Notes under the pieces: generated by a model | Database searches by the model: none | Told to the model about the DNA's origin: nothing | Seen by the model: the letters and a program-made list of their open reading frames with translations, nothing else | Assembly (NCBI GenBank): GCA_903915655.1 | Contig: CAIWTU010000077.1 | Location: 1-64,000, forward strand | Source of the DNA: an uncultured Geobacter sp. | GTDB taxonomy: Bacteria > Desulfobacterota > Desulfuromonadia > Geobacterales > Geobacteraceae | DNA: 64,000 nucleotides | Reading direction: 5' to 3' | Translations under genes and position numbers: made by a program | Shown: positions 52,420-63,789 of the stretch, in pieces | How positions within the stretch are numbered: position 1 is the first letter of the stretch | Layout of the letters: the number at the start of each line of letters is the position of its first letter

Positions 52420-52424
52420 TCAGC
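52396..52424 (-). terminator. Possible terminator overlapping the nuoN stop
   Basis: GCTGAAG and CTTCAGC form a perfect 7-bp stem with a 3-base loop (52408-52424) that includes the nuoN stop. On the minus strand it is followed by TCTCTTCTTCGTTTTTCC. It fits the end of the nuo operon. Confidence 0.5.
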
Positions 52425-53832
52425 GGAGGATCGAGTCGATCAGCTCCAATAGCGGGCCGGGATAAACCCCTAGGAGGAGGATAACGGCCGAGGTGGCGCA
52501 GAGGGCGATCATTTCGCTAACGGTTGCCTGATTGGAGAGTTTCTCCCCATCAGCTGGTTGCATATAAAGGAGAGCCACCACCCTCAGGTAGTAATAGACC
52601 GAAATCAGCGCGGTGATGATTCCGATTACGGCAAGGGGAAGCTCATTCCCCTTGAGCGCGGCCGCAAAAATGGCAAACTTCCCGATGAACCCCGCTGTCG
52701 GAGGAATACCGGCAAGGGCGAACATGGAGAGGGCAAGGACTCCCCCTTGAAGGGGGCGGCTAAAACCAACCCCCCGAAAATCCTCAACATCCTCCAACCG
52801 GTTTTCCCCGGTCAGCGAGGAGATTGCGCCGAAGGCGGAGAGGTTCATCGCCGTATAGATAACGACATAGAGAATAACTGCCGCAAAACCTTCCCGGATG
52901 CCCGTCAGTAAGGCCAGCGTCAGATACCCCATCTGGGCTATGGAAGAATATGCCAGCATCCGCTTCAAATTCTGTTGCCGCAGCGCTGCCAGGTTACCGA
53001 GGACCATGGAAAAGAGAGAGAGGCAGCAGAGCGGGGTATGCAGCATGGAAATGCCCGACCCCATCGCAGGGAGGAGGAGTAGCAGTGCCGCAAAACCTGC
53101 CGCCTTGGAGCCGGTGGAAAGGAATGCGACAACCGGTGTCGGGGCCCCCTGATAGACATCGGGCGTCCAAAGGTGCGCCGGGACGAGCGAGACCTTGAAG
53201 GCAAGCCCCATCAGGAGGAAGCCCCACCCCGCATAGGCAACAGGAACAGTTTTGCCTCCGGAGGCTACACTCTTCATTGCAGCGTTGATCTCCAGCGTAC
53301 CGACTCCGGCGTAGAGCAGAGCAATACCGAAGGCTATCAAGGCGGCGCTTACCGCCCCCTGCAGGAGATATTTCAGTCCGGCCTCGGTGGAATCCGGGCT
53401 GTTCCGGTCAATGGCGGTAAGTATGTAAAAGGCAAAGGTGAGCCCTTCCAGCCCGAGGAAAAGATTCAACAGGTTGGCGGATGTGGCAAGCACTACCATG
53501 CCGAAGGTTGCAAAGAGCACCGTTGCCGGATACTCCTCACCATGGATACCCCGACGCTTGTTATAGTCATGGGAAAGGAGGAGTGTGATCAGAGCAGTCA
53601 GTGAAAAGAGGAGAATGAAAAACCTGGCAAAAGGGGTGAATGCGATTCCCAAAAGCGGCGCTACCGGTAGCGGAGGGGTCCGCAGCGTCCAGAGGGCGGA
53701 AGCGAGGAGGAGAATCACGCCGGTAATTGTGCCATGTCGACCGGGGACGAAAGCACCGAGCAGCAATACGAAAATGATCCCCGCTGCAATGATGATAAGC
53801 GGCATGGAAGCCCAGATATCAGCCGAAATCAT
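52420..53832 (-). CDS. nuoN: NADH-quinone oxidoreductase subunit N
   Basis: 470 residues with about 14 membrane helices. LKYLLQGAVSAALIAFGIAL and VSLVPAHLWTPDVYQGAPTP hold the lysines of the proton channel, and MLAYSSIAQMGYL is the Mrp-antiporter signature. It is one of three antiporter-like proton-pumping subunits. It overlaps nuoM by 4 bases and is the last gene of the operon. Confidence 0.94.
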   Translation of the reverse strand: MISADIWASMPLIIIAAGIIFVLLLGAFVPGRHGTITGVILLLASALWTLRTPPLPVAPLLGIAFTPFARFFILLFSLTALITLLLSHDYNKRRGIHGEEYPATVLFATFGMVVLATSANLLNLFLGLEGLTFAFYILTAIDRNSPDSTEAGLKYLLQGAVSAALIAFGIALLYAGVGTLEINAAMKSVASGGKTVPVAYAGWGFLLMGLAFKVSLVPAHLWTPDVYQGAPTPVVAFLSTGSKAAGFAALLLLLPAMGSGISMLHTPLCCLSLFSMVLGNLAALRQQNLKRMLAYSSIAQMGYLTLALLTGIREGFAAVILYVVIYTAMNLSAFGAISSLTGENRLEDVEDFRGVGFSRPLQGGVLALSMFALAGIPPTAGFIGKFAIFAAALKGNELPLAVIGIITALISVYYYLRVVALLYMQPADGEKLSNQATVSEMIALCATSAVILLLGVYPGPLLELIDSILR

Positions 53833-55322
53833 GGCATTCCTCCCACAAGAAGCTGGACGGGAACTCTGATCAGGTCGAGCAGCGGCGCCGGGTAAACCCC
53901 CAGGAAAACAATGATTATGGCAAATAAAGACAATGTGAACCCTTCACGCAGGGATATATCTCTCATTTCCTCGGCTCTCCCTCCCTGCTCAAAAAGCACC
54001 TTCTGTACCATCCGGAGTGTATAGACCAGGATCGGCACGACTCCAGAGAAAGCAAGGGTTGCCATCCAGGGGGAGACCCTGTAAACACCGATCAGAATCA
54101 GTAATTCTCCGACAAAATTATTCAGTCCAGGCAAGCCAAGGGACGCAAGAGAAACCAGCAGAAAAAAGACAGAGAAGTATGGCGCCCTCCCCCAGATCCC
54201 ACCGAAGGCGTCAACGTCAGTGCTCTGCATTCTTTCTTCCAGCATCCCCACCAGAACAAACAGGCACCCTGTCGTGATGCCATGATTCACCATCTGCAGG
54301 ACCGAACCGGAGAGGGAGAGAGGTGTCCAGGCCGCAATTCCGAGGACGATAAAACCCATATGCCCGAAGCTGGAATAGGCGACCACCCTTTTCAGATCCC
54401 CCTGGGAATAAGCAATCCAGGAAGCGTAAATTATACCGGCAACTGCAAGGGCTAGCAGCAGAGGGGTAAACAAAGGGAGAGCAGAAGGAAAGAGGGGATA
54501 GGCAAAGCGTATCAGTCCGTAGGCGCCTGTCTTGGCCAGCAGCGCCGCCAGAATCAGACTCCCTGCAACCGGCGCATCGGCATAGGTATCAGGAAGCCAG
54601 ATATGAACCGGGAAAATCGGAATCTTTATGGCAAAGGCAAGCAGGAATGCTCCGAACAGCCAGGCTGCCGCTGCGGGTTCCAGTGCGGTATGGAGCAGCT
54701 CGACAAGGGCAAAGGTATAGCGCCCGGTCTGGTCGCCATGTATCAGGTAGAGGGCGATTATCGCCAGAAGCATAAGGAGTGAACCTGCCAGGGTAAAGAT
54801 GAAAAACTTCAGAGCGGAATAAACCGGCCGCCCTCTCCCCCAGAGAGAGATGAGAAAGAAGATGGGAATTAGCATCACTTCCCAGAAAAGGTAAAAGAGA
54901 AAGAGATCAAGGGAGAGGAATACGCCCATGATCCCGGTTTCAATAAGAAGAATAAGCGCATAATAGAAAGCGAGATGTTTTGCGACCGGCTGGCGGGAAA
55001 CCAGCACGGCAATAAAGATGATGAATGCGGTGAGCAGCACCAGGAGCATGCTTATTCCATCCAGACCCAGAGTGTAGCGGATGCCGAACTGCTCTATCCA
55101 GGGAAGATCCTGGTAGATAAAGAAACCTGGCCGGAATGAATTACCTGCTGGATCGATGGGCGCCATCGCACAGAGCCATCCCGTCAGCCCGAGCTCAAGG
55201 CCCGAAACTGCCAGCCCCAACATTCTGCACCAGTGGTCCCTGTTCCGTAAGAGCAGCATAACCGCACTGCCCAGCAGTGGCAGAAAGAGCAAAATTGTAA
55301 GTATCGGAGAGTTATTTAACAC
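53829..55322 (-). CDS. nuoM: NADH-quinone oxidoreductase subunit M
   Basis: 497 residues, about 14 helices. YFLFWEVMLIPIFFLI-type helix 5 carries the key glutamate (FYLFWEVMLIP). The channel motif FPVHIWLPDTYADAPV and VVAYSSFGHMGFIVLG are intact. A proton-pumping antiporter-like subunit, it overlaps nuoN by 4 bases and follows nuoL by 73 bases. Confidence 0.94.
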   Translation of the reverse strand: MLNNSPILTILLFLPLLGSAVMLLLRNRDHWCRMLGLAVSGLELGLTGWLCAMAPIDPAGNSFRPGFFIYQDLPWIEQFGIRYTLGLDGISMLLVLLTAFIIFIAVLVSRQPVAKHLAFYYALILLIETGIMGVFLSLDLFLFYLFWEVMLIPIFFLISLWGRGRPVYSALKFFIFTLAGSLLMLLAIIALYLIHGDQTGRYTFALVELLHTALEPAAAAWLFGAFLLAFAIKIPIFPVHIWLPDTYADAPVAGSLILAALLAKTGAYGLIRFAYPLFPSALPLFTPLLLALAVAGIIYASWIAYSQGDLKRVVAYSSFGHMGFIVLGIAAWTPLSLSGSVLQMVNHGITTGCLFVLVGMLEERMQSTDVDAFGGIWGRAPYFSVFFLLVSLASLGLPGLNNFVGELLILIGVYRVSPWMATLAFSGVVPILVYTLRMVQKVLFEQGGRAEEMRDISLREGFTLSLFAIIIVFLGVYPAPLLDLIRVPVQLLVGGMP

Positions 55323-55395: not shown

Positions 55396-57270
55396 CTATG
55401 AAATAATCTCCCAGGCAAAATAAACGAGCAGCAACACCGCACCGCCTATGAAGCTGGCAAGATAGATCGAAATCCTGCCGTTGCTCCATCTTCCGAGGCT
55501 CTCTCCAGCAACCCCGCAAATATTCCCGAGGGAATCGACGAATTTACCGAATATTCCCTCGTCAACCCCGGTCCAGAGGAAAGTGGAAACGGCATTATAG
55601 GGTCTGACAAAGAGATACCGGTATAGTCGGTCGAAATACCATCCTTCAAGAAAAAATGCTGTGATCTTCCTCTCCAGTAAACTCTGCTGCCGCGCCTGCC
55701 ACCTTCCGCCGGAATAACGGGTGTGGGCTATAACCAGACCGGCCAGGGCAATAAAAGCGGCAATAATTTGCAGGATTATCTCCAGACCAGCACCCTGTCT
55801 TATCTCTGGAATTCCCATAAAGGGAGAGAGATAATTACCAAGCCATCCGGGCCAGCTAAAGTATTCCGGAAGATTCAGGAGTCCACCGAAGAGGGCCGTT
55901 ACGGCAAGCGGTATCAGGGTAATTTCCATTGAACGCGGTACAACAGTCTGTACATCCCGCTCTTCACCGCCAAAGACGAGATAAACCATCCTGAATGTGT
56001 AGATAGCTGTGAGTAGCGCCGTGCACTCAGCCAGTACAAACAGTATTGGATAAAGCAGACCCCCTTTCGCATATACCGCCACAAGAATAGCGTCCTTGCT
56101 GAAGAATCCGCCGGTGAGCGGCAGACCCGCAAGAGAGGCCGCACCGACCAGAAAGGGCCAGAAGGTCCGCGGCAGCTTCCTGCGCAATCCCCCCATCTTG
56201 AAGATATCCTGCTCATGCCCCGTCGCCATGATGATACAGCCGGCCCCCATGAAGAGTAGGGCCTTGAAGAATGCATGCACCAGGAGGTGAAACGTGGCGG
56301 CGGTGATCGCACCGCTTCCGACTCCAAGCATCATTAAACCGATCTGGCTCATGGTTGAATAGGCGAGAATCCTTTTCAGGTCACGTTGGGCCAGGGCGGA
56401 GCTGGCGGCGTACAGTGCCGTAGCCGCGCCAATAGAGGCAATAACGGCCGGGACGAGAGGCGATATCCCTATGAAGGGGAAGAATCTGCACAGCAGGTAG
56501 ATCCCGGCAATTACCATGGTGGCGGCATGGATCAGGGCGGAAACCGGAGTCGGCCCGGCCATGGCATCGGGCAGCCAGACCATGAGCGGCATCTGTGCCG
56601 ACTTGCCGATGGCGCCGCCGAGGAGGAGGAGCCCCAGTAAGGTAACGGTAGAGACCGGTATCAGGTGCCCCATCTGATTGATTTCACTGATAGAGACCGT
56701 TCCAAAAAGAGTGAACATCCAGAAGATGGCAACTCCGAAAGCAACATCCCCGATCCGGGTAACGATGAAGGCCTTGCGTCCTGCCGTGGCATTTGCCTCC
56801 TCGCGGTACCAGAAACCGATCAAGGCATAGGAGCAGAAACCAACCCCTTCCCACCCAAGAAACAGAAGCGGGAGAGTGTCCGCCAGAAGGAGGAGCAGCA
56901 TTGCAAAGAGAAAGAGATTCAGGAGGGTGAAGAAACGGAGATAATCCTTATCTTCCCTCATGTAAGCGATCGAATAGAGATGGATCATCCCTGCCACGAA
57001 GGTAACCATCAGGCAGATGATAGCGGAGAGGCTGTCGAAACGGAGGGCAGCAGGCGCATGGAAATCGAAGGCGGAGATCCATCGGAAGAGCTCTGTCTTC
57101 ACCGGACCCTGCAGCAAGAAGAACCCTGCGGCGGAGCAGCCAAAAGAGGCCCAGACGGAGCCGCAGGCGATAGTCTGGCAGAGCCGACGGGGGAGCCGCA
57201 TGCCTGCCAGAGAGTTTATTATCGCTCCCATCAGTGGGAAAAGGAGTATGAGGAGAAGGCAGCTTTTCAT
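55396..57270 (-). CDS. nuoL: NADH-quinone oxidoreductase subunit L
   Basis: 624 residues with 15 or more helices and the long lateral C-terminal helix that spans the membrane arm. FLGWEGVGFCSYALIGFWY carries the proton-channel Glu. SAQMPLMVWLPDAMAGPTPVSAL and ILAYSTMSQIGLM are conserved. It is the distal antiporter-like subunit. It lies 2 bases after nuoK. Confidence 0.95.
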   Translation of the reverse strand: MKSCLLLILLFPLMGAIINSLAGMRLPRRLCQTIACGSVWASFGCSAAGFFLLQGPVKTELFRWISAFDFHAPAALRFDSLSAIICLMVTFVAGMIHLYSIAYMREDKDYLRFFTLLNLFLFAMLLLLLADTLPLLFLGWEGVGFCSYALIGFWYREEANATAGRKAFIVTRIGDVAFGVAIFWMFTLFGTVSISEINQMGHLIPVSTVTLLGLLLLGGAIGKSAQMPLMVWLPDAMAGPTPVSALIHAATMVIAGIYLLCRFFPFIGISPLVPAVIASIGAATALYAASSALAQRDLKRILAYSTMSQIGLMMLGVGSGAITAATFHLLVHAFFKALLFMGAGCIIMATGHEQDIFKMGGLRRKLPRTFWPFLVGAASLAGLPLTGGFFSKDAILVAVYAKGGLLYPILFVLAECTALLTAIYTFRMVYLVFGGEERDVQTVVPRSMEITLIPLAVTALFGGLLNLPEYFSWPGWLGNYLSPFMGIPEIRQGAGLEIILQIIAAFIALAGLVIAHTRYSGGRWQARQQSLLERKITAFFLEGWYFDRLYRYLFVRPYNAVSTFLWTGVDEGIFGKFVDSLGNICGVAGESLGRWSNGRISIYLASFIGGAVLLLVYFAWEIIS

Positions 57271-57272
57271 GA

Positions 57273-57581
57273 TTATTCCCGCAACGTGCTGAAGTCGTCG
57301 GAATCGACCGATTTTTTACGGCGATGGAGGTAGACTACCAGCGCCAGGGCCAGCGAGACCTCCGCCGAGGTCATGGCGATGATGAAAAGGGCGAAAACCT
57401 GGCCGTCTGCACTCCCCCAGTAGGCCGCCCCACCCACAAAAGCCAGGATTACGGCATTGAGCATGATCTCGATGCCGATCAGCATCATGATGATATTCTT
57501 CCGCCAGGCGATCAGGCAGAAGATTCCCATGGTGAAAATCAGGGTGGAAAGAATAAGGAGATGGGTCAGAGGTACGATCAT
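57273..57581 (-). CDS. nuoK: NADH-quinone oxidoreductase subunit K
   Basis: 102 residues, three membrane helices. The membrane glutamates needed for proton pumping are in IEIMLNAVILAF and SAEVSLALALVV. It overlaps nuoJ by 4 bases. Confidence 0.93.
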   Translation of the reverse strand: MIVPLTHLLILSTLIFTMGIFCLIAWRKNIIMMLIGIEIMLNAVILAFVGGAAYWGSADGQVFALFIIAMTSAEVSLALALVVYLHRRKKSVDSDDFSTLRE

Positions 57582-58066
57582 TTGCGCCTCCCCAGGTAGA
57601 GCGCCCCTACCAGCGCAAACAAAAGCTGCATGGAGACAATCTCCACGGCAACCCCGTATTTTCTGAAGAGTACCGTTGCGAAATCACGAATTTTCACCGG
57701 GTTTGCAGGAAGTGCGGGTGGGGGGTGATGCAAGACCAGCAAGATAAATGCGGCCAGTGTCACCACCCCGAGGAGCAGCGCCGGCGCCCAGTCACGCACC
57801 CCGGGCAGAAGGATCTTTTCCGGGTGCCCGAGCTCTAGCATCATGATAACAAAGAGGAACAAAACCATGATCGCACCAGCATAGATGATGACTTCAAAGA
57901 CCGCTACCAGCGGCGCGTTCAAGAGATAAAAGATTACGGCAAGGGCAAAGAACGAGGTGGCCAGATAGATAATGGCATGGACCGCATGCTTCTCCGTTAT
58001 GGAAAAAAGTGTCGCAATCAAAACCACCGCAGCCAGTATATAAAAAACAACCTGTTCCATGATCAC
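57578..58066 (-). CDS. nuoJ: NADH-quinone oxidoreductase subunit J
   Basis: 162 residues, five helices. AVFEVIIYAGAIMVLFLFVIMM is the conserved third helix with its pi-bulge region. The start is one of two close ATG codons. It follows nuoI by 47 bases. Confidence 0.92.
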   Translation of the reverse strand: MIMEQVVFYILAAVVLIATLFSITEKHAVHAIIYLATSFFALAVIFYLLNAPLVAVFEVIIYAGAIMVLFLFVIMMLELGHPEKILLPGVRDWAPALLLGVVTLAAFILLVLHHPPPALPANPVKIRDFATVLFRKYGVAVEIVSMQLLFALVGALYLGRRK

Positions 58067-58113
58067 CCTGCCAATTTAAGTCAGACTACCCTCTTCCCTG
58101 CCCTCTCCCCTCT

Positions 58114-58644
58114 CTAAGGGACCAGCCTTCTCACATCAACCGGCGGCTCTTCGTCTACATTGCCGCCACGGGGGTTTACGATACCGATCCCGCTATGGCG
58201 GTAAAAATTATACTCCGGCTCCTTGCCGCAACCGTCGATAAGGAGCTCTTCCTTTTCATACACCAGCTCCATGATTTTACGGTTGCAGATTTCGTAATCC
58301 GGGGTCATCTGTATGGCCATGGTCGGACAGGCCTCGGCACAAAAGCCGCAGAAGATGCACCGGGAAAAATTTATGCGGAACCAGGCGGCGTAGCGGCGGC
58401 CATCCGCCTGCCCGGCCGCCTGCATCGATATGCAGCCAGCCGGGCAGACGGCAGAACAGAGGTAACAGGCAACGCACCGTTCGCCCCCGTCCGGGTCCCT
58501 TGTTAATACTATGCGCGCCCGGTAGCGGGGAAAAGGAGTGCGCTTCTGCTCAGGGTACTCGATGGTGAGCGGCCGGAGGAAAATATGCTTTCCGGTTGTC
58601 CAGAATCCGAGCAGCAACGCTTTTATATCTTTGAATAATGACAT
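58114..58644 (-). CDS. nuoI: NADH-quinone oxidoreductase subunit I (2[4Fe-4S])
   Basis: 176 residues. Two ferredoxin motifs [16 protein letters not shown] and [16 protein letters not shown] bind clusters N6a and N6b, which pass electrons toward the quinone. The start with GGGAG upstream removes 63 residues of unrelated upstream frame. It follows the ankyrin gene by 41 bases. Confidence 0.94.
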
Positions 58645-58685
58645 CTTGCTCCCATCTCCGGAGGCCCGCAGGCAACGACAACATG

Positions 58686-59108
58686 CTATAATGCCTGCCT
58701 GGCCCTTTGTGCCTTCCTCAACAATTCGAGGGTATCGGGATGCGAATTGGTTTCGGCGTATACCAGCGCACTGTTGCCGCTCAAGGTTCTGGCATTGATA
58801 TCGGCGCCAGACTCGAGCAGCTGCGACAGACATTCGTTACAGCCGTAATTTGCCGCCAGCATCAAGGGGGTATGGCCGTTGCGATCACGCGCATCCACAA
58901 CTCCCCCCTGCTGCAGAAGTATTTTAATCACCTCCGCATGGCCGTTGGCTGCCGCATAATGGAGCGCAGTCTTCCCCTTGTTGCTACGCGACTCCAAGTC
59001 AGCGCCTCTGTGAAGCAGGTCTTTGACTGCCTCCTCATTACCTTCCCTTGCCGCAATAATAAGCGGCGTGTGCCCATCCCTGTCTGCTGTGTTAACATTT
59101 TCTGTCAT
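58686..59108 (-). CDS. Ankyrin-repeat protein within the nuo operon
   Basis: 140 residues with four ankyrin repeats in a row: [60 protein letters not shown] and [20 protein letters not shown]. No signal peptide, no enzyme domain. Ankyrin repeats bind proteins. It has a good AAGGAG ribosome site, is 47 bases after nuoH and 41 before nuoI, and is in the same direction. It may help assemble or regulate the complex; this is not known. Confidence 0.85.
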
Positions 59109-59155
59109 AACAGTTCTCCTTTCGGCTAGAGTGCCCCGCAAATTGAGTAACAACC

Positions 59156-60148
59156 TCATTTATTCAGTATTAACCACCATCCTGTCACCACGATATTAAG
59201 CAGAGCCAGGGGAGTGAGAACCTTCCAGCCGAAATGCATCAGCTGGTCATATCTGAGACGGGGGAGTGTCCCGCGTATCCAGATAAAAACAAAGGCAAAC
59301 GCCAGCACTTTCACGGCAAACCAGACCGGCGGCGGTAAGAGCGGACCATGCCACCCCCCAAGGAAAAAGGTTGTTGCCAGGCCGCCAAGAACAATTATGT
59401 TTATATATTCACCGACGAAGAAAAGACCGAAACGCATTCCGGAATATTCGGTGTGAAACCCGGCAACCAGTTCCCCTTCCGCCTCCGGCAGATCAAACGG
59501 CACCCGCTTGCATTCGGCAACTATGCTGATGAAAAAAATGGCAAAGGCGAGCGGCTGAAAGACGATAAACGGGAGATCGGCCTGGGCATTGACGATTTCG
59601 CTGAGACGGAAAGAACGGGAAAGCATCACGACCGGAACAAGGGAAAGCCCCATGGATAATTCGTAGGAGATGAGCTGGGCCAATCCGCGGATACTTCCGA
59701 GCAACGCATATTTCGAGTTGGATGCCCATCCGCCCAGGGCCACACCGTAAACTGCAATGGAGGAAAGCGCCATGAAAAAAAGCATCCCGATATTCAGATC
59801 GGAAACCTGCATGGTAACGGTCTGCCCGAACAGGGTAAACGGCGCACCGAACGGAATGACGGCAAAGGTCATAATGGCCGGGATCGATGCCATGGCCGGC
59901 GCTAGCAGGTAGAGCCATTTATCCGCAGCGACAGGGAGGAGATCTTCTTTGGTAAGCATCTTGATCAGATCAGCCAGCGGCTGCAGAAGACCGAAGGGGC
60001 CAACCCGGTTAGGTCCTTTCCTGTCCTGCATCCAGGCCAGGATCTTCCTCTCGGCAAAGACCAGGTAGGCAGCCCCGGTCAGAACCACGGCATAGATAAG
60101 GAGGAGTTTTACCAGAAGCAGAAGTATGTCGATCGTAGTAAACCTCAT
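59156..60148 (-). CDS. nuoH: NADH-quinone oxidoreductase subunit H
   Basis: 330 residues, eight helices. [20 protein letters not shown] is the family signature at the quinone site, and [20 protein letters not shown] is the second. The ATG with TTGGAGAG upstream replaces a longer open frame. It couples quinone reduction to the proton channels. Confidence 0.95.
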
Positions 60149-60235
60149 TTCTCTCCAACCTGCTTGATCTACTGCATAACCGCATGGATAACCATACATG
60201 GCAACCCGGACTTTTTTTCTGGGAGGGGGTAAGAA

Positions 60236-62122
60236 TCAGCTGATTCTGGTCCCTTCCCCTTCCGGATCCAGATTTCTCAGCGCCGCCCATTTTCCGTCAA
60301 GCGGTTCGGCCACTCTCTCTCCGCCGAATCTTTCTATGAGTGAGGCAATAACCTGCCAGGAGGGTCTGACATCGCCACCCTGCGGGGTCTTACCATGCAC
60401 TCTGGGTGGGTGCAGGAGAGGATCAAGCCCCTTGATCGGTAGCCCGGGGTTCATGACCTTTTTGAATCTCTGCGCCCTCCCCTCATTATTGATGAAGGTA
60501 CCGTCCATCTCCAGATGGGACGTAACGGGTAAAAATATCCCGGCCTTTCGCCCGACATCGGTCGGCATCCAGTCGGCAACCGCCAGCAGCTCGACTCCCA
60601 CGGGAAGATCCGCAGGGATGTCGGCTTCGAAGGCAATGACAGCTTTTATTTTCCCTCCGGCCAGGGCCTCTGAAACCGCCGGCGATTGGCTCTCGACGGC
60701 CAGCATGGCGGCGGCGAAAGAGTTCGGGGCGTTAAAAAGAAAGGTAACTCCGGCAGGCGCCCCAGCCGCCTTCCGGACGGCGGAGATATCGGCTGAGGCT
60801 GTACCGCAGATGATCACCGGGCTTTTGCATCCGGCGAAAGGAACTTCATCGATAAGATCAACTGCCGAGAATTCAAATGGAAGTTTTTTTAGCTCAGGGG
60901 ATGAGACGCCGACCAGGAATATTTTCGCCCCGTTACGCCAGGCCTGGCGGACTGCCAGCGCCATCATCGGCCCCTCTTCCAGAAGGTCGCAGTTAAAGAG
61001 GGCTATACAGTCGGCTTCCCGGACCTCCGCCATCGAACGCGACTTTTCCCCGACAAGGAGCGACGCAGCCATGGAAGCTTCTCCCTCTGCCGCCCCGATA
61101 AAATAGGAAAGGAGACCGGCTTTCACGCACGCAGCAAGCTGTCCAAGAAGGAGATTCCCTTCCAGTGACATTCGGGGTGAGCCAACCAGGGCAATGCTCT
61201 CCGTTCCATACTGTCGCGTCACCTCTCCGACACGCCGGACCAGCGCCTCCAGCGCCTCGTCCCAGCCGACCCTCTCTCCATCGATCAACGGGTAACGCGG
61301 TCGCTCCGGGCTGTTTACCCGGTCGTTACCGAACCGCCCTTTATCGCAGATAAACCAGCCGTTCACTTTATCGTTGAAGCGCGCAGTGGTCTTGAGCAAC
61401 TCCCTGTAGCGGGCCATCGGGACGGTGTTGCAGCCGAGGGAACAGTGGGGGCAGACCGAGGGGGCCATATCGTAGTCCCAATAACGGGCCCGGAAGCGGG
61501 CCGGCTTGTCGGTAAAAACCCCTGTGGGACAGATATCCACCAGGTTGCCTGAAAATGGGGATTCCAGCACCCCGGAATCCTTCCTGCCGAAATAGATCAG
61601 ATTTGCCCGGCCCATAACGCCAAAGTCGTCCCCGCCGGCAAAATCCTGGTAAAAGCGGACACAGCGGTAACAGTGGATGCAGCGGTTCATCTCGTGTCGA
61701 ATATTTTCACCCAGGTACTGGTTGTTATGGGTCCGTTTTTTCCCCTTGTAGCGACGGATAGCATGCCCGCCTGCCACGGTGTAATCCTGCAGCTGACATT
61801 CCCCCCCCTCGTCGCATACCGGACAGTCGTGCGGATGGTTCAGCATCACCCATTCGATCACCAGACTGCGCATTTGCACGGCTTCGCTGTCGGTTGTCGA
61901 AACCACCATTCCATCCTGGGCAGGGATCATGCAGGACATCTGGATCCCCTTGACCGGTCCTTCCAGGAACTTCATGGCGCAGAGGCGGCAGGCGCCGGCG
62001 CTCCCCAGGGCAGGATGGTAGCAGAAGTGGGGGATAACGATTCCCGCCTTCCGCGCCGCCTCGATCACCTTGGTTTCGGACGGGACTTCAACTTCGATGT
62101 TGTCGATAATTAGCTTGGGCAG
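60236..62122 (-). CDS. nuoG: NADH-quinone oxidoreductase subunit G, probably started at CTG
   Basis: 628 residues from the CTG; 610 if a downstream GTG were used. The conserved N-terminus LPKLIIDNIEVEVPSETKVI is in frame before that GTG, and only CTG, placed 6 bases after AAAGGA, can begin it: a stop lies just upstream, inside the nuoF end. Cluster motifs: [2Fe-2S] FCYHPALGSAGACRLC, N5 HPHDCPVCDEGGEC, N4 CIHCYRCVRF with CPTG, and N7 CPHCSLGC with a further Cys 27 residues later. It carries electrons from NuoF toward NuoI. It follows nuoF by 3 bases. Confidence 0.9.
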   Translation of the reverse strand: MPKLIIDNIEVEVPSETKVIEAARKAGIVIPHFCYHPALGSAGACRLCAMKFLEGPVKGIQMSCMIPAQDGMVVSTTDSEAVQMRSLVIEWVMLNHPHDCPVCDEGGECQLQDYTVAGGHAIRRYKGKKRTHNNQYLGENIRHEMNRCIHCYRCVRFYQDFAGGDDFGVMGRANLIYFGRKDSGVLESPFSGNLVDICPTGVFTDKPARFRARYWDYDMAPSVCPHCSLGCNTVPMARYRELLKTTARFNDKVNGWFICDKGRFGNDRVNSPERPRYPLIDGERVGWDEALEALVRRVGEVTRQYGTESIALVGSPRMSLEGNLLLGQLAACVKAGLLSYFIGAAEGEASMAASLLVGEKSRSMAEVREADCIALFNCDLLEEGPMMALAVRQAWRNGAKIFLVGVSSPELKKLPFEFSAVDLIDEVPFAGCKSPVIICGTASADISAVRKAAGAPAGVTFLFNAPNSFAAAMLAVESQSPAVSEALAGGKIKAVIAFEADIPADLPVGVELLAVADWMPTDVGRKAGIFLPVTSHLEMDGTFINNEGRAQRFKKVMNPGLPIKGLDPLLHPPRVHGKTPQGGDVRPSWQVIASLIERFGGERVAEPLDGKWAALRNLDPEGEGTRIS

Positions 62123-62125
62123 ATT

Positions 62126-63391
62126 TTATCCTTTAAACGGGCATCGCTTCTTCACGATATGGTCCTTGATCTCGTCCTCGAAATATTGCAAAAGAGCAGT
62201 AACCGGCCCCATGGCTCCCGGGGCCAGGGGACAGAAGGAGTAATTCAGGTATTTCACATGCTCACGGAGGATTCCGATATCAGCCAATTCTCCCAGACCG
62301 GTTTCGATCCGTTCCAGAATATTCTGCACAAAAGGGAGTCCTTCCCGGCAGGGAGTACACCAGCCGCAAGATTCGCGGGCATAGAAACGGATCAGGTTAA
62401 GGGTTACCCCGACCATGCAGGTCTGCTGGTCGAAAACGACAATGCCGCCTGTCCCGAGGCGCGAACCGGCCTTGGCCACCGTATCGAAATCCATCGGCAC
62501 ATCAAAATGGGACGGAGTAAAAAACGGTGTTGACGCGCCTCCGGGAATACAAGCCTTGAATTTCTTTCCCGGAAGCATCCCCCCACAGGGGCCATCGATA
62601 ATTTCCCCCAGGGTTGTGCCGAGTGGCAGTTCGACGCAGACCCTGTTGCGCACATGGCCGCTGGTACAGAACAGCTTGTTCCCGGCGGATTCAGGAATTT
62701 TTGCCAATCCCTTGAACCACTCTGGACCGTTCCGTATGATTGACGGGATGTTCGACAGGGTCTCCACGTTATTGACCACCGTCGGCCCGCCCCATAACCC
62801 CTTGATTGCCGGGAATGGCGGTTTGCTGCGCGGATTGGCGCGCCTCCCTTCCAGTGCATTCATCAGGGCGGTCTCTTCACCGCAGATATACCGGCCAGCC
62901 GAGACGTGGAGATCAACCTCCAGAGAAAATCCGCTCTTCAAAATATTTTCACCCAGATAACCGGCCGCTCTGGCTTCCGCGAGTGCCCTGCGGAGGTTTT
63001 TCACAGGGATTTCATACCCTCGCCGGATAAAGATGAAGGCTCGTTTAACCTCCAACACATAAGCTGCCAGAATCAGCCCCTCGACCAGAAGGTAGGGGTT
63101 GTTTTCGAGAAGGACCCGGTCCTTGTAGGTTCCCGGTTCCATCTCGTCAGAGTTGCAGATGAGGTAGCGCGGTCCCGGCAGGTTGCGCGGAACGAACGAC
63201 CATTTCTTGCCGGTCGGGAAACCGGCCCCCCCTCTCCCCCGCAGTCCCGAGTCGATGACCGTCTGCTGGAGATCATTGGGGGAGAGGCCGGAGAGGGCCT
63301 TCCGCAACGCCTCGAATCCACCCGTAGCCAGGTATTCGGCAAAACTCACCGGAGCATCAGGTTTATTATCTCTGAACAGGACAAGTTCCAT
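62126..63391 (-). CDS. nuoF: NADH-quinone oxidoreductase subunit F
   Basis: 421 residues. NADH/FMN site: GLRGRGGAGFPTGKKW and CNSDEMEPGTYKDR. The N3 cluster ligands lie in SCGWCTPCREG plus a Cys in NYSFCPLAPGA. It oxidises NADH and passes electrons to the cluster chain. A cytochrome gene separates it from nuoE. Confidence 0.95.
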   Translation of the reverse strand: MELVLFRDNKPDAPVSFAEYLATGGFEALRKALSGLSPNDLQQTVIDSGLRGRGGAGFPTGKKWSFVPRNLPGPRYLICNSDEMEPGTYKDRVLLENNPYLLVEGLILAAYVLEVKRAFIFIRRGYEIPVKNLRRALAEARAAGYLGENILKSGFSLEVDLHVSAGRYICGEETALMNALEGRRANPRSKPPFPAIKGLWGGPTVVNNVETLSNIPSIIRNGPEWFKGLAKIPESAGNKLFCTSGHVRNRVCVELPLGTTLGEIIDGPCGGMLPGKKFKACIPGGASTPFFTPSHFDVPMDFDTVAKAGSRLGTGGIVVFDQQTCMVGVTLNLIRFYARESCGWCTPCREGLPFVQNILERIETGLGELADIGILREHVKYLNYSFCPLAPGAMGPVTALLQYFEDEIKDHIVKKRCPFKG

Positions 63392-63468: not shown

Positions 63469-63789
63469 TTAAAATGTCTTCAAAATATACTCGGCTATCT
63501 CCGTTGCTTCCTTGTCGGAGATCGCCTCCTTGTCAAATCTGGTCATACCCGGGCCAGGATTCCGAATTTTGGCTACAATCCCCTGCACCGTCTTTATATC
63601 ACCCCCCTCGAGGGATTTCTTCCCCAGGGGTTTTTTCGGGTTGCGCCTATTGCCCCCATTGGGGTGACATCCGGCACAGTACTCTTTGAATTCCAGCTCT
63701 CCGATTGGACCCTTACCCTCAAGAGAACCAGCCGCGGAGATCGAAGTTGCGGCAAACAGTAGCACCAATGCAGTCAATACATTCTTCAT
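63469..63789 (-). CDS. Exported monoheme c-type cytochrome
   Basis: 106 residues. A signal peptide (MKNVLTALVLLFAATSISAA) is followed by one heme site CAGCH (about residues 38-42) and a distal Met in GPGMTRF. The size and fold resemble class I cytochromes c. It is in the periplasm. It sits between nuoE and nuoF in the same direction, an unusual place for a cytochrome gene. The start has GGGGGAG. Confidence 0.9.
   Translation of the reverse strand: MKNVLTALVLLFAATSISAAGSLEGKGPIGELEFKEYCAGCHPNGGNRRNPKKPLGKKSLEGGDIKTVQGIVAKIRNPGPGMTRFDKEAISDKEATEIAEYILKTF

Follow-up and report, generated by a model that had tools for sequence, protein, structure and literature searches.

An ankyrin-repeat gene, here called ank, separates nuoH from nuoI in an uncultured Geobacter sp., and its position raises the question of whether the protein works for the complex I that its neighbors encode. 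The gene was located in the window, which is the 64,000-nucleotide stretch of contig CAIWTU010000077.1 that was analyzed, and its orthologs were followed through the class and phylum.

The ank gene and its operon

The ank gene occupies positions 58686 to 59108 on the minus strand and encodes a 140-residue protein. The ATG start codon is at 59108-59106, and the reading frame is open back to 59159. A Shine-Dalgarno-like AGGAG read from the sequence (59116 to 59120, minus strand) is located 7 bases 5' of the ATG, and spacers of 47 bases from the nuoH stop and 41 bases to the nuoI ATG (58644) flank the gene. The Pfam Ank_2 profile matches the protein with E = 2.9e-37 and 127.5 bits, compared to a curated cut-off of 27.3. 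The AlphaFold2 model has a mean pLDDT of 95.8 and shows four helix pairs corresponding to four repeats. The open reading frame, the profile, and the model thus bear out what the sequence-only reading had described, namely four ankyrin repeats, an own ribosome site, and gaps of 47 and 41 bases. A genome-wide profile search found ank to be the sole Ank_2 match in the genome of the window. A scan of positions 57200-60300 returned one promoter match against a shuffle mean of 2.3 and seven terminators against a shuffle mean of 4.2.

The minus-strand nuo operon extends beyond the end of the window into the 5.7 kb of contig that follow (L111). The gene order is nuoA, a fused nuoBCD (NCBIfam NF009808 above its cut-off), nuoE, a small c-type cytochrome gene, nuoF, nuoG, nuoH, ank, nuoI, and nuoJ-nuoN, and the operon encodes 12 Nuo proteins. 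All of the following genes are on the minus strand. The upstream neighbor of ank is nuoH (59156 to 60151; PF00146, E = 1.1e-126), the true start of which is perhaps a few codons off, and the downstream neighbor is nuoI (58114 to 58644; NCBIfam NF004536 above its cut-off). Beyond nuoI lie nuoJ (57578 to 58066), identified by its open reading frame and a profile, and nuoK (57273 to 57581), which was named without a profile by position and similarity among relatives. They are followed by nuoL (55396 to 57270), nuoM (53829 to 55322), and nuoN (52420 to 53832), each assigned from its open reading frame and NCBIfam. Upstream of nuoH are nuoG (60236 to 62068; open reading frame, Pfam, and NCBIfam) and nuoF (62126 to 63391; open reading frame and Pfam). 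A second non-Nuo gene and candidate passenger of the operon, the one for the small c-type cytochrome, is at 63469 to 63789, and nuoE, nuoBCD, and nuoA lie upstream of it on L111. It has the same place between nuoE and nuoF in several relatives (L113, L114, L281).

Excerpts of PMC2825233 describe a 12-subunit complex I in Geobacter besides a 14-subunit enzyme, and the make-up of the window operon, with 12 Nuo proteins, fits the former. Excerpts of PMC5585712 identify GSU3429-GSU3445 as a type E complex I cluster that is not needed for growth on fumarate. The window operon is probably a cluster of this type, equated with it by make-up and not by sequence comparison. G. lovleyi is reported to be without the 12-subunit enzyme. 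This fits genus g18, in which 14/15 genomes have no 12-subunit operon, and g18 is presumably the G. lovleyi group. When partial matches are counted, a second NuoH with 44-55% identity to the window NuoH is present in 51/58 relatives, and the second NuoI of relatives has 31-46% identity to the window NuoI. The genome of the window is among the 7/58 without a second NuoH of the 44-55% type and shows just a 38% match, and it may have no complex I besides the 12-subunit enzyme.

Distribution of ank and its position relative to the nuo genes

A search of 277 genomes of the class (E ≤ 1e-25) found the ank ortholog in 131/141 genomes of the window's order, with one match each and no second copy, and in 0/136 of the remaining genomes. 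The latter count takes 126 genomes absent from the kinship-ordered match list as outside the order. A phylum-wide even draw of 395 genomes yielded nine with the ortholog, all within the order. At a looser threshold the weakest ortholog (6.0e-44) was well apart from the best other ankyrin (4.7e-20). The orthologs in the 130 other genomes have 52-78% identity to the window protein. Close named matches were Geobacteraceae, Geobacter, Desulfuromonadales, and Deltaproteobacteria bins, and the order that carries ank is apparently Geobacterales. Matches in G035, G228, and G229 were flagged with one internal stop; the local matches end 1-2 residues earlier. Fusion of ank to nuoH or nuoI was considered for relatives with long open frames and rejected after a check of G012, where the three matches are in different frames.

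Absence is weak evidence in this set because many of the relatives' assemblies are fragmented. True loss of ank was considered for the ten order genomes without a match, and no clean loss was found among them. In G213, ank at the engB site is split over two reading frames, which points to gene decay or to a misassembly. The contig stops in engB or folE2 in G237 and G242 and in nuoI in G053. FolE2 went unmatched in G212, G246, and G214, so the ank site may be absent from these assemblies. The rest of the ten are G023, G057, and G194.

In 80/131 genomes, nuoH and nuoI flank the gene and share its strand, and both gaps are ≤300 bases in 77 of these 80. Inside-operon loci make up 46/47 in f1 (the window's family), 2/4 in f2, 2/10 in f3, and 30/70 in f4. 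No ank match was detected between nuoH and nuoI in 14 outgroup operons from other orders. The view that ank is built into the nuo operon therefore holds across all four families of the order.

The other 51/131 genomes carry ank outside the nuo operon. Judged by threshold matches, 32 order genomes have ank and neither NuoH nor NuoI of the 12-subunit type, and 25 of these 32 are at least 90% complete. Among near-complete genomes (≥90%) without the 12-subunit type, ank is intact in 25/28; the other three are G213, whose copy at the engB site is frame-broken, and G212 and G246, which lack the FolE2 match marking the site. A further 19 order genomes have NuoH and/or NuoI of the 12-subunit type and ank elsewhere. 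The check on conservation in related nuo operons that the sequence-only reading had proposed gave the outcome that this reading had itself named as speaking against a complex-I partner, as relatives have 12-subunit-type NuoH/NuoI with ank at another place.

A tree of NuoH and NuoI was used to place the operons without ank. It was built by a quick method without a mixture model and left out 11/19 g13 rows, 2/80 inside-operon rows (length filter), G051, G053, and G194. The 19 usable ank-less operons of the order cluster together with a support of 90 (not starred), f3 and f4 are mixed in this cluster, and G042 of f3 is placed inside an f4 group. The mixed cluster and the placement of G042 are read as one compact ank-less operon that would have passed between families f3 and f4. 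G260 has two 12-subunit-type nuo operons, on C28 and C77, one with ank and one without.

ank at the old operon site

The neighborhoods of ank were compared between relatives with and without the surrounding nuo genes. The gene names engB, panC, bcp, and queF rest on Pfam, and folE2, mqnB, panB, panD, efp, priA, and dinG were named by us from the sequence. In f4 genomes with the ank-bearing operon, which starts at nuoH there, the order is engB< nuoH> ank> nuoI>, with engB beside nuoH in 27/30 inside loci. In f4 genomes without it, the order is engB< ank>, with engB beside ank in 30/40 outside loci. The pan genes (panD< panC<) follow engB< ank> in 18/22 outside loci of genus g17, and the engB-nuoH-ank-nuoI series of G229 and G232 runs on to nuoL and then to panD, panC, and panB. 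The remaining 10/40 f4 outside loci are g18 loci at which only the ank-efp side was recognized, so the old-site position is shown for 30/40 f4 outside loci. In f3, priA-bcp-nuoA in G036 and G045 corresponds to priA-bcp-ank in G039 and G051. A DinG-like gene adjoins ank downstream in G039, and its counterpart is ~6 kb past nuoN in G036. In f2, nuoA-nuoBCD-queF-nuoE-cytochrome-nuoF-G-H-ank in G044 compares to queF-cytochrome-ank in G035. In f1, bcp-nuoA..F-V4R-GGDEF-nuoG-nuoH-ank in G029 compares to bcp-V4R-GGDEF-ank in G033, and G011 has the same layout as G029 by similarity. Each of the four families has examined members in which ank stands where the operon used to be and the nuo genes are missing.

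The ank-bearing operon beside engB in G229 and G232 (L273, L274) holds only nuoH, ank, nuoI, nuoJ, nuoK, and nuoL. The 12-subunit operon is taken to be split in these genomes because NuoM- and NuoG-type matches are on other contigs.

Traces of the lost genes were detected in front of free-standing ank. The engB-ank stretch of G222 corresponds to the region before nuoH of its sister G232 with an alignment score of 210. A stretch like the last nuoH codons and the nuoH-ank spacer follows with a score of 63, and downstream the likeness to G232 resumes at panD. Remnants were called by a criterion of our own choice, namely an alignment score that beat the highest of 5 or 10 shuffles by more than 10. 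On this criterion, 17/51 outside loci (G033, G035, G038, G039, G051, and 12 of g17) have a trace of the nuoH end or the spacer before ank, and none passed the shuffle criterion in g18, g19, g22, g23, g26, or g28. The region that precedes nuoH was matched before ank in 27/51 outside loci, including 22/22 of g17. The five matches outside g17 are in G051, G195, G047, G055, and G263. Four of these five are not read as a promoter because they belong to f3, where other genes of the operon precede nuoH. In three of the loci (L136, L119, and L124 of G195, G047, and G055), the sequence before free-standing ank resembles the pre-nuoH region of G036.

Because of these remnants, the direction of change is shown to be loss of nuo genes around ank in G033 (f1), G035 and G038 (f2), G039 and G051 (f3), and genus g17. 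The same direction is probable for the remaining outside loci. The reverse course, insertion of nuo genes around a pre-existing ank, was considered and rejected. Under it, nuo genes would have had to enter separately to either side of ank and also between queF, the cytochrome gene, and ank, and the nuoH-end remnants before free-standing ank would have no explanation.

A tree of the genes flanking ank in f4 shows the inside/outside state changing at least five times on well supported branches. Parsimony gives 11 changes, with a 5-95% range of 9-12 over a set of bootstrap trees that had yet to settle. This tree used 54/70 genomes, with 16 left out, and carries a long-branch warning for G048. The preserved before-and-after sites make ank a clear case in which to study operons that gain passenger genes and are outlived by them.

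Selection, partner face, and function of Ank

Median omega of ank ranged from 0.063 to 0.174 over the seven genus sets tested, with the start codons of the orthologs chosen by a script. In g17, the median was 0.073 for the 14 genomes with ank inside the operon and 0.068 for the 22 with ank outside. The unchanged value in g17 is not proof of life without the complex because 11 of these 22 outside genomes still own an ank-less 12-subunit-type operon. That point is shown by g18, where median omega is 0.063 over 15 genomes, all outside, 14 of which have no 12-subunit complex. The other genus sets, all inside the operon, gave medians of 0.066 to 0.174. Selection on ank is equally strong in the two positions. 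Loss of the complex with ank retained under selection in its former middle amounts to a natural deletion test repeated several times over.

Across the inside and outside states, 31 residues are ≥97% conserved in both. Eleven residues are signatures of the family (H13, R34, S42, K44, K46, A54, H79, Y88, C90, E119, and K132) by a cut-off of our choice, ≥93% in orthologs and <25% in 68 other ankyrins. The model of Ank is a plain ankyrin stack, and its nearest folds among the best 50 were mostly DARPins, with 41-46% identity and an rmsd of 0.6-1.5. DARPins share the fold and the usual way of binding with Ank, but they are engineered binders, and the likeness shows neither descent nor function. Positions 3, 5, 13, and 14 of the ankyrin repeat are, in the numbering that we assume, the binding positions of designed ankyrins. 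When the repeat count starts at residue 9, these positions hold six of the 11 signature residues (H13, K44, K46, A54, H79, and Y88). The chance tail for six of 11 is 0.007 in a simple binomial, where the 11 residues depend on our cut-off. K21 (92%) and R74 (94%) add to the basic face. The signature residues on the binding face therefore suggest that it holds one conserved partner, probably an acidic one. They are not relaxed outside the operon, which argues that the partner is the same there and that the 12-subunit complex I is not its sole source. Retention of ank in cells without that complex likewise argues that the partner is not encoded only by the nuo operon.

The reading that we consider likely is that Ank is an order-specific cytosolic adaptor with an order-wide partner of its own, and that the nuo operon is the host in which ank travels as a passenger. 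The job of Ank is probably not tied to the 12-subunit complex I because relatives without the operon kept ank at the same spot. On this reading, ank would have entered the 12-subunit operon, between nuoH and nuoI, ahead of the divergence of the order's families, and it would have been carried inside as a passenger ever since. The nuo genes would then have been lost in several lineages, leaving ank at the old site. The protein would bind one conserved, probably acidic protein or ligand through its basic face, and we would guess at a cytosolic redox or signaling protein common to the order. Several observations weigh against the passenger reading. The second NuoH of 51/58 relatives and the strong NuoJ match in 10 of 15 genomes without the 12-subunit type would suit a general complex-I role. 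Retention of ank in the operon in 80/131 genomes, and in 46/47 of the window's family, would also be given by co-expression with complex I. Survival at the old site is not specific to ank, since the cytochrome, V4R/GGDEF, and queF genes survived too in some lineages.

A general complex-I assembly or regulatory factor, which would serve any complex I and be kept after loss of the 12-subunit type, is an unlikely role. It would account for the ancestral place inside the operon. A NuoJ-type match (PF00499) was found in 12/15 genomes without the 12-subunit operon, with E ≤ 1e-37, the level of the 14-subunit type, in 10 of these 12, and the second NuoH is present in 51/58 relatives. However, three of 12 ank-keeping genomes tested, all of them devoid of the 12-subunit operon, have no NuoJ match at all, these being the fragmented assemblies of G033 (94% complete), G254 (95%), and G196 (81%). 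The second set is also only 44-55% (NuoH) and 31-46% (NuoI) identical to the 12-subunit proteins, and no second ank copy accompanies the second operon at E ≤ 1e-25.

It is very unlikely that Ank is a cofactor or heme carrier of the kind found beside catalases. Excerpts of PMC11442138 and PMC7567364 describe small stand-alone bacterial ankyrins in Cj1386 of Campylobacter jejuni, AnkB of Pseudomonas aeruginosa, and the Leptospira ank-katE pair. They resemble Ank as bacterial ankyrins beside a redox enzyme that are thought to bind a partner, but they adjoin or assist catalases, and Cj1386 is a heme binder, whereas Ank is in a nuo operon with no link to heme or catalase seen. The Ank family also persists when the nuo enzyme is lost. 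A small ankyrin beside a redox gene, the conserved Y88, H79, H123, and C90, and a thiol peroxidase gene (bcp) adjoining ank in some relatives would all suit a heme carrier. The peroxidase neighbor is accounted for by the old nuo site, and no catalase was recognized among the neighbor clusters (≥4 genomes) listed for the 51 outside loci, which were named without a catalase profile. To our knowledge, complex I contains no heme.

The sequence-only reading had held a complex-I assembly or regulatory partner to be possible. The comparisons do not support this for the 12-subunit complex, and a dedicated partner of that enzyme is, if anything, less probable than a heme carrier. The place between nuoH and nuoI in 80/131 genomes of four families is what such a partner would show. 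Against it, 32 genomes keep ank without NuoH or NuoI of the 12-subunit type, 19 combine a whole or partial complex with ank at another place, and selection is as strong in g18, 14/15 genomes of which do not have the complex. The GSU3429-GSU3445 cluster of the model species is, moreover, reported to be dispensable for growth on fumarate (PMC5585712). Operon position is widely used to assign function, and ank is a warning against such a reading. A neutral insertion not yet decayed, for which there is the frame-broken copy in G213 and beyond that only the lack of a known partner, is barely credible given median omega values of 0.063-0.174 and 31 residues that are ≥97% conserved whether ank is inside or outside the operon.

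The fold and the class of small bacterial ankyrin adaptors are known, and the Ank family has no curated name. NCBIfam gave none, as all 11 matches were below their cut-offs and the best reached 98.8 bits compared to 800 (MzaA); Ank is below the cut-off for the Dot/Icm effector and MzaA types of NCBIfam ankyrin families. A literature search on ankyrin with Geobacter, the nuo operon, and complex I assembly found no paper on the ank gene. The word ankyrin is absent from the main text of PMC2825233, and PMC5585712 is not among the Geobacter papers with ankyrin in the text. The only Geobacter ankyrin gene met in the literature was GSU2896, in excerpts of PMC11934962, and no link from it to the Ank family is drawn. 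Ank is a nearly order-wide protein, and the group that carries it is studied for its extracellular electron transfer.

Other genes share the nuo operon in relatives. A V4R-domain gene is located between nuoF and nuoG (L275:2814-4249, also L261, L126, L129, L278-L280, and L293), and in L275 the gene after it encodes a HAMP-GGDEF protein (diguanylate cyclase). V4R and GGDEF survive beside ank in G033 (L112), where the nuo genes are gone, and in two f2 genomes the cytochrome gene stays upstream of ank after nuo loss. The queF gene is inside the G044 nuo operon between nuoBCD and nuoE (L281:5656-6075). It is a possible but doubtful extension that the nuo operon is a host site for redox and signaling genes (ank, the c-type cytochrome, the V4R sensor, and the diguanylate cyclase) with Ank as an order-defining hub. 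If true, these genes would work together apart from complex I and stay in order and in place as the nuo genes vanish. Two further loci were unusual. G262, a three-contig genome without the 12-subunit operon, has three equal NuoJ-type matches on C3, each at 1.0e-29. In G020, short tandem repeats with an RVQGSGF-type frame (L261:6872-7216) are located between nuoJ and nuoK.
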